Shown piece after piece: positions 19,980-37,427 of a DNA stretch of 64,000 nt. Origin of the DNA: Phycisphaeraceae bacterium D3-23 (GTDB lineage: Bacteria; Planctomycetota; Phycisphaerae; Phycisphaerales; Phycisphaeraceae); assembly GCA_039555135.1 (NCBI GenBank), contig CP114179.1:4154001-4218000 (forward strand), in the 5' to 3' direction. The notes below the pieces were generated by a model. That model was given only the letters and a program-made list of their open reading frames with translations, was not told the DNA's origin and made no database searches. The position numbers and the translations under genes are program-made. Within the stretch, counting starts at the first letter, position 1. Every line of letters begins with the position of its first letter.

Positions 19980-20007
19980 TTGACGCCGCCCGTCGCCACG
20001 CTACAAT
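19980..20007 (+). promoter_or_regulatory. Promoter of the SAM-riboswitch operon
   Basis: TTGACG (19980-19985), 16-base spacer, TACAAT (20002-20007). Transcription from about 20014 would include the whole riboswitch. The 500-base stretch between rpsG and the next gene is filled by the terminator, this promoter and the riboswitch leader. Confidence 0.65.
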
Positions 20008-20030: not shown

Positions 20031-20156
20031 TGCTTTTATCCAGAGTGACCGAGGGACTAGGCCCATTGACGTCACCGCAACCGCGCAGTAAACCCGCTGC
20101 GAGAGGTGCGAATTCCTACCCCGCCCGTACCCACGGCCGGGGGCAGATAAGGAGCG
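20031..20156 (+). promoter_or_regulatory. SAM-I (S-box) riboswitch
   Basis: The core matches the S-box pattern in order. P1: GCTTTTATC (20032-20040) with GATAAGGAGC (20146-20155). P2: GTGAC (20045-20049) with GTCAC (20071-20075), flanking GAGGGACTAGGCCC and followed by CGCAACC. P3: CGCAG (20084-20088) with CTGCG (20097-20101). The conserved joint is GGTGCGAATTCC (20105-20116). P4: CCCCG (20119-20123) with CGGGG (20138-20142). It should sense S-adenosylmethionine and repress the downstream operon. The expression platform may be the CCGGGGGGCTT/AAGCCCCTCGG stem near 20213-20243, which lacks a clear T-run, so translational or Rho-linked control is possible. Confidence 0.92.
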
Positions 20157-20312
20157 GCATAGGGACTCGGCTTGCCCGCAAGCCACACGTCACCGCCCCT
20201 CGTTGTCTGCGACACCGGGGGGCTTGTTCGTTAAAGCCCCTCGGCCGTTCGATTGACCAGCGAGACCACACTCGCTCACGTTTCGTGCTCCGATGAGCCA
20301 GAGAGTTTGACC

Positions 20313-21563
20313 ATGAGCTACGCCCGATGCCTGAAAGCCAAAGAGTGCGGGGCCGAGTACCCGCTCGAGCCGCGCACGATCTGTGACAACGACTTCTCGC
20401 CCGTCGAGGTGCAGTACGACTACGACGCGATGCGCGGCAAGGTCACGCGCGAGTCGATCGAGCAAGGCCCGCGCTCGCTGTGGCGCTACAAAGACCTGCT
20501 GCCCATCGAGGGCGAGCCCCGCGCCGGGTTCAACTCCGGCTGGACCCCGCTCATTAAGGCCGACCGCCTCGCAAAGAAGCTCGGCGTCGATGAGCTCTAC
20601 ATCAAGGATGACTCGGCTAACTACCCGAGCTTCTCCTACAAAGACCGCGTCGTCTCCGTTGCGATCACCAAGGCCGTCGAGTTCGGCTTCGACACCGTCG
20701 GCTGCGCGAGCACCGGCAACCTCGCGCACTCCGTCGCGGCCCACGCCGCGACGGCCGGGCTCAAGTCCTGCGTCCTCGTGCCCCACGACCTCGAAGAAGG
20801 CAAAATCGTCGGCAGCCGCGTCTTTGGCCCGCAGCTCGTGAAGATCAAGGGCAACTACGACGACGTCAACCGATTGTGCGCCCAGATCGCCGACAAGTAC
20901 GGCTGGGCGATCGTGAACGTGAATCTTCGGCCGTACTACACCGAGGGCGCGAAGACGCATGGCTTCGAGATCGCCGAGCAGCTCGGCTGGCGTTTGCCTA
21001 AGCACACCGTGCTGCCCGTCGCCGGCGGGACGATCCTGCCCAAGGTGTGGAAGGCGTACCAGGAGTTCATCACGCTCGGTCTGGTCGAGGACAACAAGCC
21101 CGCGATGTACGGCGCGCAGGCCGCGGGCTGCAACCCGATCGCCAAGGCCGTCGCCGAGGGCAGCGACCTGTTCCACCCGCAGAAGCCCGACACGATCGCC
21201 AAGTCGATCGCCATCGGCAACCCGGCCGACGGGTACTACGTGATCCAGCACCTCAAAGAGTCAGGGGGTTATGCCGCCAGCGCGACCGACCCCGAGATCC
21301 TCGCCGCCATCCGATTACTCGCCGAGACCGAAGGCATCTTCACCGAGCCGGCGGGCGGGACGACGTTGGCGTGTGCAATCAAGCTGATCGAAGAAGGCCG
21401 GATCCCCAGGGACGAGCCGATCTGTGTGTGTATCACCGGCAACGGGCTCAAGACGATCGAGTGCATGGACGGCCAATTCGAGCACGTCGAGCCGATCGAG
21501 GCGAAGCTGTCGGCGTTTGATGCCGTCGCGTCGCAGACGGTAGAGGCGGCGGTCGTGGGCTGA
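20313..21563 (+). CDS. thrC: Threonine synthase homologue under SAM-riboswitch control
   Basis: 416 residues, PLP fold-type II. The N-terminus CLKAKECGAEYPL is the short zinc-ribbon-like segment of archaeal/plant-type ThrC. The PLP lysine is in PSFSYKDRVVS (Lys110), then GCASTGNLAHSVAAHAA, the phosphate-binding segment around PVAGGTILPK, and AGGTTLA near the end. Threonine synthase turns O-phosphohomoserine into threonine by beta/gamma chemistry. A SAM riboswitch and the following sulfur-carrier genes argue that this copy makes homocysteine by gamma-replacement on O-phosphohomoserine, or is a threonine synthase caught up in methionine control. The start is the ATG after the 300-base leader. 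Function beyond the family level is inference. Confidence 0.88.
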   Translation: MSYARCLKAKECGAEYPLEPRTICDNDFSPVEVQYDYDAMRGKVTRESIEQGPRSLWRYKDLLPIEGEPRAGFNSGWTPLIKADRLAKKLGVDELYIKDDSANYPSFSYKDRVVSVAITKAVEFGFDTVGCASTGNLAHSVAAHAATAGLKSCVLVPHDLEEGKIVGSRVFGPQLVKIKGNYDDVNRLCAQIADKYGWAIVNVNLRPYYTEGAKTHGFEIAEQLGWRLPKHTVLPVAGGTILPKVWKAYQEFITLGLVEDNKPAMYGAQAAGCNPIAKAVAEGSDLFHPQKPDTIAKSIAIGNPADGYYVIQHLKESGGYAASATDPEILAAIRLLAETEGIFTEPAGGTTLACAIKLIEEGRIPRDEPICVCITGNGLKTIECMDGQFEHVEPIEAKLSAFDAVASQTVEAAVVG

Positions 21564-21680: not shown

Positions 21681-21965
21681 ATGTCCGAGCAAGTCACCGT
21701 TACCGTCCCCGCCGCGCTGCGGCCTCAGGTCGAAGGCCAGGAATCTGTCGCCGCCGACGGGGCGACCGTCGGCGAAGTCCTCACGGGACTCCGCACCCAG
21801 TACCCGTCCTTCGGCGACAAGCTTTTTCCTGGCGGCGGCGAGCAGATCAACCGCTCAATCAACATCTACGTCAACGAGGAAGATATCCGCTTCCTCGATA
21901 ACTTCGGCACACCCGTCACGGCCAAAGACCAGGTCGATATCATCCTCGCCATCGCCGGCGGCTAA
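21681..21965 (+). CDS. ThiS/MoaD-type sulfur carrier protein
   Basis: 94 residues, ubiquitin-like beta-grasp. VTVPAALRPQ opens the fold and NIYVNEEDIRFLDNFGTPV is the usual MoaD/CysO strand region. The protein ends in ILAIAGG, so the terminal Gly-Gly needed for adenylation and thiocarboxylation is already exposed and no processing protease is required. GGAG at 21669 precedes the ATG by 8 bases. Between the ThrC homologue and the E1-type gene, it is best read as the sulfur donor of this operon, like CysO or Wolinella HcyS, rather than a thiamine or molybdopterin carrier. Confidence 0.88.
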   Translation: MSEQVTVTVPAALRPQVEGQESVAADGATVGEVLTGLRTQYPSFGDKLFPGGGEQINRSINIYVNEEDIRFLDNFGTPVTAKDQVDIILAIAGG

Positions 21966-22064: not shown

Positions 22065-22319
22065 ATGGCAACCACGACCCGCAAGTGCTGGCTGACGTTT
22101 GAAGGCGGCGCGCAGAACCAGCCCCGCCTCTGGGAGATGTCCCGCAAGTTCCCGACCGTCGTCTTCGATATCCGCCAGGCCAGTGTGCAGGAAGATATCG
22201 GCATCATGGCGGTGCTGTTCGAGGGCGAAGAAGAAGACGTCCAAGCCGCGCTGGACAACCTCGTCGCCAACGGCGTGAAGGTCGACCCCGTCGAGGGCGG
22301 CTCGCTCGTCGCGCCTTAG
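22065..22319 (+). CDS. Stand-alone NIL-domain protein
   Basis: 84 residues. The pattern RKCWLTFEGGAQNQPRLWEM, then FDIRQASVQEDIGIMAVLFEG and AALDNLVANGVKVDP, matches the NIL domain (ferredoxin-like fold), otherwise found at the C-terminus of methionine ABC transporter ATPases and fused to ferredoxins in homocysteine synthesis from aspartate semialdehyde. There it is associated with methionine binding or sulfur transfer. Here it is free-standing, with AAGGAG 6 bases before the ATG. It may bind methionine as an allosteric sensor or escort sulfur; neither is shown by sequence. Confidence 0.85.
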   Translation: MATTTRKCWLTFEGGAQNQPRLWEMSRKFPTVVFDIRQASVQEDIGIMAVLFEGEEEDVQAALDNLVANGVKVDPVEGGSLVAP

Positions 22320-22341: not shown

Positions 22342-23568
22342 ATGACCGCAATCGAAACCAACGACATCGAACCACAAGCCCAAGACATCCCCGGAGACCT
22401 TGCCCGCTACCACCGGCAGATGCTGCTGCCCGGCTTCGGCGAGGAAGGCCAGCGCAAACTGCTCGGCGCGACCGCGCTGGTCGTCGGGTGCGGCGCGCTC
22501 GGCACCGTCATCGCCAACATGCTCGCCCGCGCGGGGGTGGGCCACCTCATCATCGTCGACCGCGACTTTATCGAGATGACCAACCTCCAGCGGCAGGTGC
22601 TGTTCGATGAGGACGATGTCGCCAACGCAATCCCCAAGGCCGAGGCCGCGAAACGCAAGATCGCGAAGATCAACTCGCAGGTCATAGTCTCGGCCGTCGT
22701 CGATGATGTGAACCACACCAATATCGAGTGGCTTGCCGGCGTGAAGCCCGATGGCAGCGACGCGGTGGAGTCACCAGCCGGCAAGAAAGTCGACATCATC
22801 GTCGACGGCGTCGACAACTTCGAGACGCGCTACCTCGCCAACGACTGCGCTGTCAAGCACGGCATCCCCTACGTCTACGGCGGCGCTGTCGGCACCGTCG
22901 GCGCAAGCTACCCCATCCTCCCCCATACGGCAGAGCGCAGTTCCGACACGGCCGAGCCCGCTTCAGCGGGCCGGGGCCTTGGCAACACCCCCTGGGAACA
23001 GCAAAACCGCGCCACCCCCTGCCTCCGCTGCATCTTCGAGCAGGCACCGCCGCCCGGGCTCAACCCGACGTGTGATACCGCCGGCGTCATCGGCCCAGCG
23101 GTCTCGATCGTTGCAAACTTCCAGGTCCTCGAAACGCTCAAGATCCTCACCGGCAACCTCGACGCGGTCAGCCCGACGATGCTCAACCTCGACCTCTGGG
23201 GCAACACCGTCCGCCAGTTCAAGGTCGCCAAGGCCTACGACATCAGCGACTGCCGATGCTGCCACCACCGCGACTTCGAGTTCCTCGACGGCAAGTTCGC
23301 CAGCGGCACGACCACGCTCTGCGGCCGAAACGCCGTGCAGATCACGCAGAAACTCGGCGACGGCCAGAAGCTCGACTTCGCCGAGATCACCAAGCGTTTG
23401 GAACAGCACGGCAGCGTCAACGGCAGCAAGTTCATGCTCCGCGCCGACATCACCGACAATGGCGAGCCCTACGAACTCACCCTCTTCACCGACGGCCGCG
23501 CGATCATCAAGGGCACGCAGAAACCAAGCGTCGCCAAGTCGATCTATGCGAAGTACGTCGGGGCGTAG
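22342..23568 (+). CDS. ThiF/MoeB-type E1-like adenylyltransferase
   Basis: 408 residues. ATP-binding GCGALGTVIANMLARAGVG (about residue 51), the DRDFIEMTNLQRQ motif with catalytic Arg, and the DNFETRYLANDCAVKHGIPYVYGG stretch define an E1-like enzyme. Zinc ligands are CLRC (near 227) and CRCC (near 308). NPTCDTAGVIGP holds the possible sulfur-relay cysteine (near 241). A roughly 95-residue C-terminal domain ends YAKYVGA, as in many free-standing ThiF proteins. An unusual insert (about 196-224, SSDTAEPASAGRG...) lies before the first CxxC; its DNA contains a CCCGCTTCAGCGGG hairpin. It should adenylate the Gly-Gly carrier encoded two genes upstream. Confidence 0.9.
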   Translation: MTAIETNDIEPQAQDIPGDLARYHRQMLLPGFGEEGQRKLLGATALVVGCGALGTVIANMLARAGVGHLIIVDRDFIEMTNLQRQVLFDEDDVANAIPKAEAAKRKIAKINSQVIVSAVVDDVNHTNIEWLAGVKPDGSDAVESPAGKKVDIIVDGVDNFETRYLANDCAVKHGIPYVYGGAVGTVGASYPILPHTAERSSDTAEPASAGRGLGNTPWEQQNRATPCLRCIFEQAPPPGLNPTCDTAGVIGPAVSIVANFQVLETLKILTGNLDAVSPTMLNLDLWGNTVRQFKVAKAYDISDCRCCHHRDFEFLDGKFASGTTTLCGRNAVQITQKLGDGQKLDFAEITKRLEQHGSVNGSKFMLRADITDNGEPYELTLFTDGRAIIKGTQKPSVAKSIYAKYVGA

Positions 23569-23628: not shown

Positions 23629-24822
23629 ATGATCTACCTCGACAACGCCGCGACCAGTTTCCCCAAAGCCCCCGGCATGGCCGAGGCGATAACGAAGTTC
23701 CTTGCCGAGGACGCCGCGAACCCCGGGCGGGCCGGGCACCGCATGGCCGTCGCGGCGGAGGAGATGATCGACCGCACGCGGCTGCAGCTTGCCCGGCTGC
23801 TCAATGCCCCGACGCATGAGCGGATCGTCTTTACGCTCAACGGGACCGATGCGCTGAACATCGCGATCAAGGGCGTGGTCGCCTCGTGCTCCGCCAGCGG
23901 CACAGTGCCGCATGTCATCACTACTGTGCTCGAACACAACTCGGTCAGCCGGCCGCTGCAGGCGATGAGCGACGCGGGGCGGATTACGCTGACACGTGTT
24001 GATTGTGATGACGACGGGTTTGTCGATGCCGAAAACATCCGCAGCGCGATCACACCCGCGACGAAACTGGTCGTCATGACCCACGCGAGCAATGTCACCG
24101 GCACGATCCAGGACGCCGCAGCGGTCGGCGCGATCGCACGTGAGGCGGATGTTTTGTTCTGCCTCGACGCGGCGCAGACGGTCGGCGTCGTGCCGCTCGA
24201 TGTGCAGGCGATGAATGTCGACCTGCTCGCGTTCCCCGGCCACAAGTCGCTGCTTGGCCCGACCGGCACCGGGGCGCTCTACGTCGGCGAACGTGTACCC
24301 GCCGCGTCGGAAGATGTCGCGGGGCAGCCCGGCCGACTCGCGCCCTTCCGCGAGGGCGGCACCGGCGGCGACTCGGCGACGCCCGTCCAGCCCGCGCTCT
24401 ACCCTTACTACCTCGAAGGCGGTACGCCCAACACCGTCGGCATCGCCGGGCTCTCGGCGTCGCTGGACTATGTCACGAATCACGGCATCGTCGACACGCT
24501 CAAGCACGAGCAGCAACTCGTGCAGAAGATCATCGACTTTGTCGATGGGCACGACGCCATGACGCTCTACGGCAACACCGACGCCTCGAATCGCGTCGGC
24601 ACGGTCTCGTTCAACATCGACGGCTTCGACGCGCCCGATGTCGGCAGCATCCTCGACGACAGCTTCGAGATCGCGGTTCGGCCCGGCCTGCACTGCGCGC
24701 CCTACGCGCATCAACGCCTGGGCACGTTCCCCGTCGGCTCGGTGCGTGTGAGTCCCGGGGCGTTTACGACGGATGAAGAAGTCGATGCACTGATCGATGC
24801 GCTCGGGCAGATTGTGGGATAG
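23629..24822 (+). CDS. Cysteine desulfurase (class V aminotransferase)
   Basis: 397 residues. It opens with MIYLDNAATSFPK, has THASNVTGT and the PLP lysine in FPGHKSLLGPTG (Lys206), and the catalytic cysteine in RPGLHCAPYAHQ (Cys356). The closing GSVRVSPGAFTTDEEVDAL is typical of the SufS-like cysteine desulfurase subgroup found beside ThiF and selenium/sulfur genes. It would take sulfur from cysteine as a persulfide and pass it to the E1/carrier pair. It lies 60 bases after the E1 gene, last in the riboswitch operon. Confidence 0.9.
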   Translation: MIYLDNAATSFPKAPGMAEAITKFLAEDAANPGRAGHRMAVAAEEMIDRTRLQLARLLNAPTHERIVFTLNGTDALNIAIKGVVASCSASGTVPHVITTVLEHNSVSRPLQAMSDAGRITLTRVDCDDDGFVDAENIRSAITPATKLVVMTHASNVTGTIQDAAAVGAIAREADVLFCLDAAQTVGVVPLDVQAMNVDLLAFPGHKSLLGPTGTGALYVGERVPAASEDVAGQPGRLAPFREGGTGGDSATPVQPALYPYYLEGGTPNTVGIAGLSASLDYVTNHGIVDTLKHEQQLVQKIIDFVDGHDAMTLYGNTDASNRVGTVSFNIDGFDAPDVGSILDDSFEIAVRPGLHCAPYAHQRLGTFPVGSVRVSPGAFTTDEEVDALIDALGQIVG

Positions 24823-24848
24823 CAGACGCATCTACACATACGAAAACC

Positions 24849-24874
24849 GGACTGGTTGCTGCTGCAACCAGTCC
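24849..24874. terminator. Perfect hairpin between convergent genes
   Basis: GGACTGGTTGC, loop TGCT, GCAACCAGTCC: 11 perfect pairs. It lies between the desulfurase end and the end of the Gcw_chp-like gene. On the minus strand it is followed by GGTTTTCG, a weak T-run. It could be a bidirectional terminator or a REP-like repeat. Confidence 0.6.
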
Positions 24875-24920
24875 AGTGATCCAAGAAGAGACGTGTTTTT
24901 GAGCACCCAACTTCCGGGGG

Positions 24921-35483: not shown

Positions 35484-35634
35484 GATCGGAGGGCGGCTCC
35501 ATGCGGGCGTGTTGAAACTCCTATTCTACCGTAAACCGTGTTGATTCGCTGGATTACGGCCCATCTGACACGGCCGGAAACTCTTGATTCAAAGCGAGTT
35601 ACACTAATCTCGAAACTCGCCGCACATCGCTTTG

Positions 35635-35640
35635 AAGGAG
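35635..35640 (+). promoter_or_regulatory. Shine-Dalgarno fixing a TTG start
   Basis: AAGGAG lies 8 bases before a TTG at 35649. The longer open frame has no such site at its ATG, and a -10-like TACACT at 35601-35606 lies between the two candidate starts. Confidence 0.7.
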
Positions 35641-35648
35641 CATCCGTT

Positions 35649-37427
35649 TTGACCCACCCCGCCGACGCCGACCCCGTGTTTGCCCGTACCCGTGCGCTCT
35701 CGCCACGCCGCACGACGACCGCCGCGCAGGACAACCCGGGTCTGGTCGATGAACAGCTCGCGCACTTCGGGATCGACCCGCAGAGCGAGTTCGGCAAGGC
35801 CCTCGCCGACGCCGCGCAGCACCTCTACGGCTGCCAGCATGACATCGATCGGCTGTGGGAAGTCACGGTCAGAAGCATCAACGAGCTCGACCCCGAAGAC
35901 CGCATCGCGTGGTTCAACGCCAAAAAGTTCCTCGCGTTCCAGTTCGCCAAGCTGCTCGACAACCTGCAGAACCCGTTCCGCAAGGTGTACCAGGGTCTCG
36001 GCTACAGCCAGGGCACGGTCGCCGCGAAGGGGCCCTACGCGATGATCGACAACATCAGCGCGATCTTCTCCGCCAACCCCGTCATCGCGCGCACCGCGAC
36101 GTACGTCTACGCCTGCGCCGAGTGGATCGCCGATGCGTTCGAGGGTAAGGAGCTGCTGCACGAGATCTACTCGCGCCTGCTCAACCCGACGTCGATCTCG
36201 CTGGCCAACCACATCGTGGACGTCGAGTGCGGGCCCAACGCGGCGGATTACTTCGCATGGAACTTTAACTCGGGGATGGCCGCGATCGATGCGACGCTGT
36301 CGCACGTGCTGGGCCGGGATGATGTGCTCATCACGAGCAAGAACCTCTACGGCGGGGCGTACCAGCTTATCCACGACTGGTTCGCCAAGCCCGGCAACCT
36401 CGCGATCGGTGTCGAGCGTTTCGATGGCAACGACGCCGAGTCGTTCCTCGGTGCGCTGAAGGCCGCACGTGAGCGCTACGCCGACCGACTTTCGCAGGGC
36501 CGGCAGGTTTATCTGTACATCGAGTCGCCCTGCAACCCGCACGGCTACATGCTCGACGTCCCCGAGATCTGCAAGGCCGCGCACAAGGAAGGCATCCGCG
36601 TCATCCTCGACGCGACCGTCGCGACGCCCGTGCTGCTCCAGCCGCTGCGCCACGAGGACGACGCCGCCCGGCCCGACTTTGTCATCCACAGCTACACCAA
36701 GGACCTTTCGGGCACCGGCTCGGTCATCGCAGGCGTCGTGATCGGCAAGAACGAGGACATGTTCGCACCCAAGGGGCATACCGATGGCCCGGTGCCTTGG
36801 GACCAGACAATGTTCTGGAACGTCTACTACATCAAGGGCGCATTCCTGAATGCCGACGCGGCGTTCGAGGTGTTGCAGGGCATGCGGACCCTCGAACAGC
36901 GCATCCTGTGCAAGTGCATCAACACCGCGATCCTCGCGCGCTTCCTGAACGACCACCCCGATATCCAGGTCAACTGCAACGTGCTGCAGAGCGACCCCAA
37001 CAGCGCGGTGCGTGAGAAGCTCAGCTTCCTCGGGCTCTCTGCGCCGCTGTTCACCACCGAGATGGAGCGTGTCCCGGCCGACGCGTTTCGCCGATTCTTT
37101 GATGTGCTCTCGCCGACGTTTGACCACATGATCTCGCTGGGCCAGACGAATACGATCGTGAACTGCCCGGCGCTGACGACGCACTCGGAGCTCGACGAGT
37201 CCGCGCTGCGTGCGGCGGACATCGCGCCGACGACGATCCGCTTCGCGGTGGGCAACGAGAACCCCAAGGACCTGATGGACCACCTGGTCAACGCGGCGAA
37301 GCTGGCGATCGACCCGGATGTGCCCGGCTTCTCCGACAAGTTCCCATCGGCCGACGAGCGCAACCGGGTGTCGGCGGAGATTTACACGGATGTACACAAG
37401 CGGTTTATCGAATCGCGGATGGCGTAG
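35649..37427 (+). CDS. Large transsulfuration-family PLP enzyme
   Basis: 592 residues from the TTG start. The C-terminal 400 residues are a Cys/Met-metabolism PLP enzyme: SKNLYGGAYQL, YLYIESPCNPHGYMLD, VILDATVATPVLLQPL and the PLP lysine in HSYTKDLSGTGS (Lys351). Cystathionine gamma-synthases, lyases and O-acetylhomoserine sulfhydrylases are about 400 residues, so the N-terminal 170 residues are an extension of unknown role. The usual GH after the lysine motif is replaced by GT. Substrate cannot be read; gamma-elimination or gamma-replacement on a homoserine ester is likely. It is divergent from gyrA and ends at a large inverted repeat. Confidence 0.78.
   Translation: MTHPADADPVFARTRALSPRRTTTAAQDNPGLVDEQLAHFGIDPQSEFGKALADAAQHLYGCQHDIDRLWEVTVRSINELDPEDRIAWFNAKKFLAFQFAKLLDNLQNPFRKVYQGLGYSQGTVAAKGPYAMIDNISAIFSANPVIARTATYVYACAEWIADAFEGKELLHEIYSRLLNPTSISLANHIVDVECGPNAADYFAWNFNSGMAAIDATLSHVLGRDDVLITSKNLYGGAYQLIHDWFAKPGNLAIGVERFDGNDAESFLGALKAARERYADRLSQGRQVYLYIESPCNPHGYMLDVPEICKAAHKEGIRVILDATVATPVLLQPLRHEDDAARPDFVIHSYTKDLSGTGSVIAGVVIGKNEDMFAPKGHTDGPVPWDQTMFWNVYYIKGAFLNADAAFEVLQGMRTLEQRILCKCINTAILARFLNDHPDIQVNCNVLQSDPNSAVREKLSFLGLSAPLFTTEMERVPADAFRRFFDVLSPTFDHMISLGQTNTIVNCPALTTHSELDESALRAADIAPTTIRFAVGNENPKDLMDHLVNAAKLAIDPDVPGFSDKFPSADERNRVSAEIYTDVHKRFIESRMA

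Follow-up and report, generated by a model that had tools for sequence, protein, structure and literature searches.

The locus

The window analysed here is a 64,000-nucleotide stretch of the genome of Phycisphaeraceae bacterium D3-23 (contig CP114179.1, positions 4,154,001 to 4,218,000). It contains a SAM-I riboswitch followed on the same strand by five genes, encoding a ThrC-like enzyme, a ThiS-like carrier, a NIL protein, a ThiF-type E1 and a cysteine desulfurase (Table 1). A PLP enzyme, a ThiS-like carrier ending in GG and an E1 belong to the gene set of thiocarboxylate systems of the CysM/CysO/Mec+ or HcyS/HcyD type, and these three are present. The NIL protein consists of a NIL domain alone, and no ferredoxin domain is found in it by Pfam. 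A hairpin at 24846-24877 was considered as the end of the operon and rejected: its T tail lies on the minus strand.

Table 1. Features of the SAM-I riboswitch locus (positions are those of the window)
Feature	Position	Strand	Length	Basis
Promoter-like site TTGACG-16-TACAAT	19980..20007	+		consensus scan; ∼26 nt 5′ of the aptamer
SAM-I (S-box) riboswitch aptamer	20033..20153	+		RF00162, 70.6 bits (gathering score 44.4)
Predicted intrinsic terminator	20195..20232	+		script and fold; stem 20195-20223, -19.4 kcal/mol alone, then TTGTTCGTT
ThrC-like fold-type II PLP enzyme, probable MetM-type homocysteine synthase	20313..21563 (ATG 20313)	+	416 aa	PF00291, TIGR00260, clade, motifs, structure model
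ThiS-like sulfur carrier ending GG, probable MetO type	21681..21965	+	94 aa	PF02597, 48.6 bits; adjoins enzyme in 77/88 loci
NIL-domain protein	22065..22319	+	84 aa	PF09383, 40.6 bits; within 6 kb in 35/88 loci
ThiF-family E1, probable carrier activator	22342..23568	+	408 aa	PF00899, 227 bits; within 6 kb in 29/88 loci
Class-V cysteine desulfurase family protein, probable sulfur source	23629..24822	+	397 aa	PF00266, 285 bits; TIGR01977, 404.7 bits, above cut-off; within 6 kb in 12/88 loci

The riboswitch and its leader

The SAM-I riboswitch is genuine. The original prediction had placed it at 20031-20156 and proposed a scan with the RF00162 covariance model as one check; that scan scored it well above the gathering score, with bounds differing by at most 3 bases, and the GGTGCGAATTCC joint named in the prediction is present in the aptamer. 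The match is complete, covering model positions 1-108 with both ends (E 1.8e-14; cmscan against Rfam 15 over the whole window), and is the sole Rfam match in the window to reach its gathering score. A genome-wide RF00162 search found no second match anywhere in the 4.62-Mb genome. The leader (20031-20330) folds at -124.2 kcal/mol (z = -4.0), a stability equalled by none of 200 shuffles.

The predicted intrinsic terminator lies in the interval that separates the aptamer from the start codon. When the leader is folded to minimum energy, the 5′ side of this hairpin is paired with the 3′ strand of P1 instead. An aptamer with a competing hairpin would be the layout of a transcription-attenuating S-box. 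The 20195-20223 hairpin is absent from the list returned by a simpler pattern scan for hairpins. In a survey of 69 leaders with the switch at most 450 nt from the gene, a strict search found a terminator in 22, compared with 7 of 690 mononucleotide shuffles; as terminators occur in just this fraction of leaders, the proposal of attenuation is confined to the window and its near relatives. The promoter-like site is favoured by its position alone, since the number of such sites is that expected by chance (one found, shuffle mean 1.0).

The ThrC-like enzyme

By profile and by fold, the product of the first gene resembles a threonine synthase. It clears the cut-off of the TIGR00260 thrC model (275 bits, cut-off 167.1) and falls below that of PRK08197 (291.2 bits, cut-off 303). 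The solved folds nearest to its AlphaFold2 model (mean pLDDT 93.7) are threonine synthases, the Arabidopsis enzyme (2c2b) aligning with Z 50.5 over 404 residues. Because the SAM-switched paralogue itself clears the thrC model, ‘threonine synthase’ is the name that automatic annotation would give it. The profile and the fold both speak for a second threonine synthase, whose repression by SAM would balance the threonine and methionine branches. So does a result reported in PMC12172450, where a Microcystis homologue of MetM has threonine synthase and deaminase activity in vitro and does not raise methionine in cells, which counts against the simple MetM reading for every homologue. MetM is the O-phosphohomoserine-using homocysteine synthase of Streptomyces, credited by the same article to Hasebe et al. 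2024 (AEM 90:e01247-24).

The genome, however, already holds another, separate ThrC (C1:781474-782529; 242 bits to the thrC model, cut-off 167.1), which is 31% identical to the SAM-switched enzyme. At E 1e-10, and among the matches listed, 41 of the 43 ortholog-bearing genomes of the class have two or more, some of the extra ones being fragments. The motifs of the SAM-switched clade are also unlike those of four solved bacterial threonine synthases: where these have N-S-x-N-P-x-R-x-E-G-Q-K-T, the clade has NVNLRP[YF]YxEGxKT. At this segment the window enzyme reads NVNLRPYYTEGAKT, departing from the threonine-synthase consensus, whereas the second ThrC of the same genome keeps N-S-F-N-P-F-R-L-E-G-Q-K-T. 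The residues N, V, N, L, R and P of the segment are invariant in 74 sequences (alignment A4, comprising the window and 73 of 75 proteins, with L111 and L122 left out). We take the altered segment to be one that contacts the substrate phosphate in Thermus ThrC. In the EPAS segment of the clade, A-S is replaced by AGG, and the clade sequences shown, Nonomuraea excepted, have one added residue ahead of the PLP-lysine motif, which is itself retained in the SAM-switched enzyme.

In the clade comparison the actinomycete Nonomuraea gerenzanensis served as a stand-in for the MetM of S. albulus. Its enzyme is 50.4% identical to that of the window. In a tree of 26 sequences it groups with the window clade, and the branch that separates them from other ThrC homologues has support 1.000. 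The label ‘threonine-synthase gene’ in the original prediction is thus probably wrong, given the second ThrC, the separate clade and the altered motifs, and a threonine synthase function for the SAM-switched enzyme is doubtful. With the conserved sulfur-carrier pairing and the lack of MetX and MetY in 37 of 43 ortholog-bearing genomes also weighing against it, the second-threonine-synthase explanation is very unlikely.

Distribution and conserved neighbourhood

A scan of GTDB genomes with an alignment of 14 of the 30 orthologs (A1) returned at least 590 relatives, of which 80 were kept. By record title these come from Planctomycetota (including Brocadia), Verrucomicrobiota, Acidobacteriota, Binatia, other ‘Deltaproteobacteria’, Elusimicrobia, Armatimonadetes, Omnitrophota and Caldimicrobium. 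Within the phylum of the window, 66 of 392 genomes have a match at E 1e-100. The neighbourhood was compared across 88 distinct ortholog loci, the window counted (91 loci minus 3 duplicates).

A SAM-I switch lies 5′ of the enzyme in 75 of these 88 loci, six of which (L079-L084) have an E1 gene between switch and enzyme. Five of the 13 switchless loci are on contigs that start at most 265 nt away, and eight have enough sequence. Six of the eight, missed by our own model R1, gave neither RF00162 nor another switch in an Rfam scan, and no RF00162 was found in the remaining two (L114 and L135). R1 detected a switch in 77 of 100 loci. Of the 14 selected aptamers from which it was built, 13 belong to ortholog loci apart from the window, and these loci match the model by construction. 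The count excludes two R1 matches, a weak second one in L081 (13.5 bits) and a truncated one in L140 (24.4 bits). RF00162 itself is found upstream in all 20 phycisphaeral loci scanned (of the 29 loci L003-L031), one being marginal at 44.6 bits, and in 6 of 8 loci of other groups.

The pairing of enzyme and carrier is similarly widespread, a ThiS-like gene adjoining the enzyme in 77 of the 88 loci. Three of the 11 exceptions have less than 230 nt of sequence left; the other eight have enough. Among ten distant ThrC homologues (33-37% identity, drawn from nine genomes, with L049 a 3.1-kb contig), none has the switch, by R1, and none a ThiS-like gene. The well-covered loci without a carrier (8/88) and those without a switch (8/88) count against the MetM reading. 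The carrier-free loci also lend some weight to a homocysteine synthase that uses free sulfide with O-phosphohomoserine, the carrier, E1 and desulfurase serving otherwise or only regulating, as does the use of sodium sulfide to mimic MetM activity recounted in PMC12172450. A carrier that adjoins the enzyme in so large a share of loci, across many phyla, argues against free sulfide, which is an unlikely donor.

Of 78 carrier reading frames scored, 55 end exactly in GG, 19 extend 1 to 8 residues past AGG and 4 are longer reading frames or fusions; carriers that extend past AGG would need trimming before activation. The carrier and the NIL domain share one reading frame in L137. An apparent enzyme-carrier fusion in L080 was rejected, the long reading frame being, by its coordinates, in the frame of the carrier and not of the enzyme.

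Within 6 kb of the enzyme, a CysM-like gene is found in 10 of the 88 loci, a JAMM protease in 3 and an aspartokinase in 3. The E1 and desulfurase are nearby in a minority of loci, which counts against the MetM reading. Individual neighbourhoods vary. In L046 (768-10053) and L047, both from order-mates, the SAM-switched enzyme stands beside CysM-like, JAMM protease, carrier-E1 and PAPS-reductase genes in a sulfur-assimilation island. The carrier-E1 of L046, its second carrier, is also fused to a rhodanese, and L046 has a sulfite/nitrite reductase as well. In an elusimicrobial locus (L114, 1845-2975) a CysM-like PLP enzyme and a ThiS domain form one fusion protein, whose gene is followed by those for TusA, the ThrC-like enzyme, another carrier and an E1. 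Three loci of Acidobacteria (L097, L108 and L110) have the switch and the enzyme, with no adjoining carrier found and an aspartokinase gene next.

Methionine pathway genes

In a search of 150 genomes of the class for the ortholog, MetY, MetX and MetA/HTS, 43 carry the ortholog (at least 54% identity) and 107 do not. MetX was called at E <1e-90, since no genome and none of 14 controls cleared the cut-off of the model itself. MetX/HTS is present in 6 of the 43 ortholog-bearing genomes, as against 66 of the 107 others, and MetY exceeds its cut-off in the same 6, as against 61 of the 107, so that 37 of the 43 have neither. A MetY-model match better than 1e-10 is absent from 32 of the 43 and from 3 of the 107. 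Within the four families that have the ortholog, an acyltransferase is found in 6 of 43 bearers and 10 of 12 non-bearers (Fisher 1.4e-5, kinship uncorrected), and three of these families (f1, f3 and f10) each include ortholog-bearers without MetX and MetY alongside non-bearers with MetX. The six ortholog-bearing genomes that keep both MetX and MetY count against the MetM reading. Acyltransferases are also absent from 41 of the 107 non-bearers, and their absence alone is therefore no pointer to the MetM route.

Searches of the genome that holds the window found no MetX and no HTS, and did find a homoserine dehydrogenase. Without O-acylhomoserine, the expected activated homoserine is O-phosphohomoserine, the substrate of ThrC-type enzymes. 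No homoserine kinase scores above cut-off in this genome, which counts against the MetM reading with respect to substrate supply: the thrB model matches along a short stretch, at 24 bits (cut-off 168), and the gene matched by the proposed-homoserine-kinase model, at 202 bits (cut-off 446), has a higher score as apgM. This apgM-like gene (C1:3430200-3431444, L147), below the cut-off of every model it matches, is the sole candidate homoserine kinase found in the genome. With respect to product release, the lack of any Prok-JAB (JAMM) protease match in the genome at E 0.001 likewise counts against the MetM reading.

The window also encodes, at 35538-37427 on the forward strand, a protein of 629 aa whose second part contains a Cys/Met-metabolism PLP domain, preceded by a long N-terminal extension. 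As the only strong PF01053 match of the genome (199.8 bits), it might be the source of homocysteine, leaving the SAM-switched operon with some other sulfur task. Yet it reaches just 184 bits against the MetY model TIGR01326 (cut-off 495.1), carries that long extension and has no SAM riboswitch at its gene in the window and genome scans, and 32 of the 43 ortholog-bearing genomes lack a TIGR01326 match better than 1e-10. Such a role for this protein is most improbable.

Proposed function

There is a strong probability that the 20.0-24.8 kb region is a SAM-repressed methionine operon, whose first gene encodes a MetM-type homocysteine synthase fed by a carrier thiocarboxylate; the gene is filed as a probable MetM. 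The computed observations behind this are the riboswitch, the gene families, the conserved neighbourhood, the replacement of MetX and MetY and the separate ThrC. The switch is most likely ordinary feedback control of methionine synthesis via a recently described route. According to the original prediction, repression at high SAM would be sensible only for a protein in the service of methionine, and the conserved context, the MetX/MetY replacement and the published MetM/MetO route agree with this.

We infer a single transcript controlled by attenuation. At high SAM, the aptamer would be bound and P1 closed, the terminator hairpin would form and the genes would remain untranscribed; at low SAM, the 5′ side of the terminator would be taken up in pairing with the 3′ strand of P1, letting transcription proceed. 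The first gene would not encode the main threonine synthase of the cell. Its product would use PLP chemistry to strip the phosphate from O-phosphohomoserine, after which a sulfur nucleophile would add at C-gamma. The ThiS-like, MetO-type carrier would hold the sulfur on its C-terminal glycine, in the form of a thiocarboxylate; the E1 would adenylate the carrier, and a persulfide source, either the cysteine desulfurase or another, would sulfurate it. Binding or release of an intermediate is a possible role for the NIL protein. Cysteine as the source of the sulfur is suggested by the order of the genes in the window and in 11 further loci.

A more tentative proposal, one that lies slightly on the doubtful side, is that the locus is a self-contained form of MetM/MetO. 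Desulfurase and E1 would move cysteine sulfur via the carrier thiocarboxylate to O-phosphohomoserine, a transsulfuration without cystathionine; the NIL protein would stand in for the JAMM protease, either binding the product or freeing it; and one SAM switch would govern all of it, MetX and MetY having been displaced in several planctomycete families.

The MetM-type reading would explain SAM control over a ‘threonine synthase’. It would extend the MetM/MetO route, credited in PMC12172450 to Streptomyces, with homologues in cyanobacteria, to many more lineages. Homocysteine synthases would then be the suggested products of the corresponding genes in Planctomycetota, Verrucomicrobiota, Acidobacteriota and other phyla. 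The reading offers a candidate methionine route for genomes without MetX and MetY, and names the NIL, E1, desulfurase and JAMM proteins as partners for sulfur-relay tests.

Comparison with known systems

In Mycobacterium tuberculosis, the CysM/CysO/Mec+ system employs a PLP enzyme that shares the fold type, together with a ThiS-like carrier and an E1, for cysteine synthesis. The likeness lies in this combination of PLP enzyme, carrier and E1, and L046 has CysM-like, JAMM and carrier-E1-rhodanese genes in a row. The window differs in its SAM control and in having a ThrC-like enzyme in place of CysM, and its genome has no Prok-JAB match. A protein-thiocarboxylate methionine synthesis in Wolinella, in which MetY acts with O-acylhomoserine, was reportedly described by Krishnamoorthy and Begley in 2011. 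It has in common with the window a carrier thiocarboxylate as the proposed sulfur donor for homocysteine, and differs in that MetX and MetY are missing from the genome of the window.

The Wolinella thiocarboxylate work is cited in PMC5764234, which describes the DUF39/NIL-ferredoxin homocysteine pathway as one in which homoserine is not an intermediate. A NIL-domain protein is common to that pathway, as described there, and to the window, where it lacks the ferredoxin domain.

The closest parallel is with MetM/MetO. According to PMC12172450, Streptomyces metM has the sulfur-carrier gene metO adjoining and a SAM riboswitch upstream, MetM averts methionine auxotrophy in S. albulus, and homologues also occur in cyanobacteria. 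On that account, the Streptomyces system and the window share a ThrC-like enzyme, an adjoining sulfur carrier and an upstream SAM riboswitch. Nonomuraea has the same order as the window, with RF00162 (68.7 bits) directly 5′ of the enzyme and a carrier ending in AVAGG directly 3′. Neither NIL nor E1 was found in its 9.2-kb stretch with the window proteins as queries, whereas the window continues on the same strand with genes for NIL, E1 and cysteine desulfurase. The MetM/MetO route was thus known already; what is new is the breadth of its distribution, the dedicated sulfur-relay genes and the replacement of MetX and MetY.
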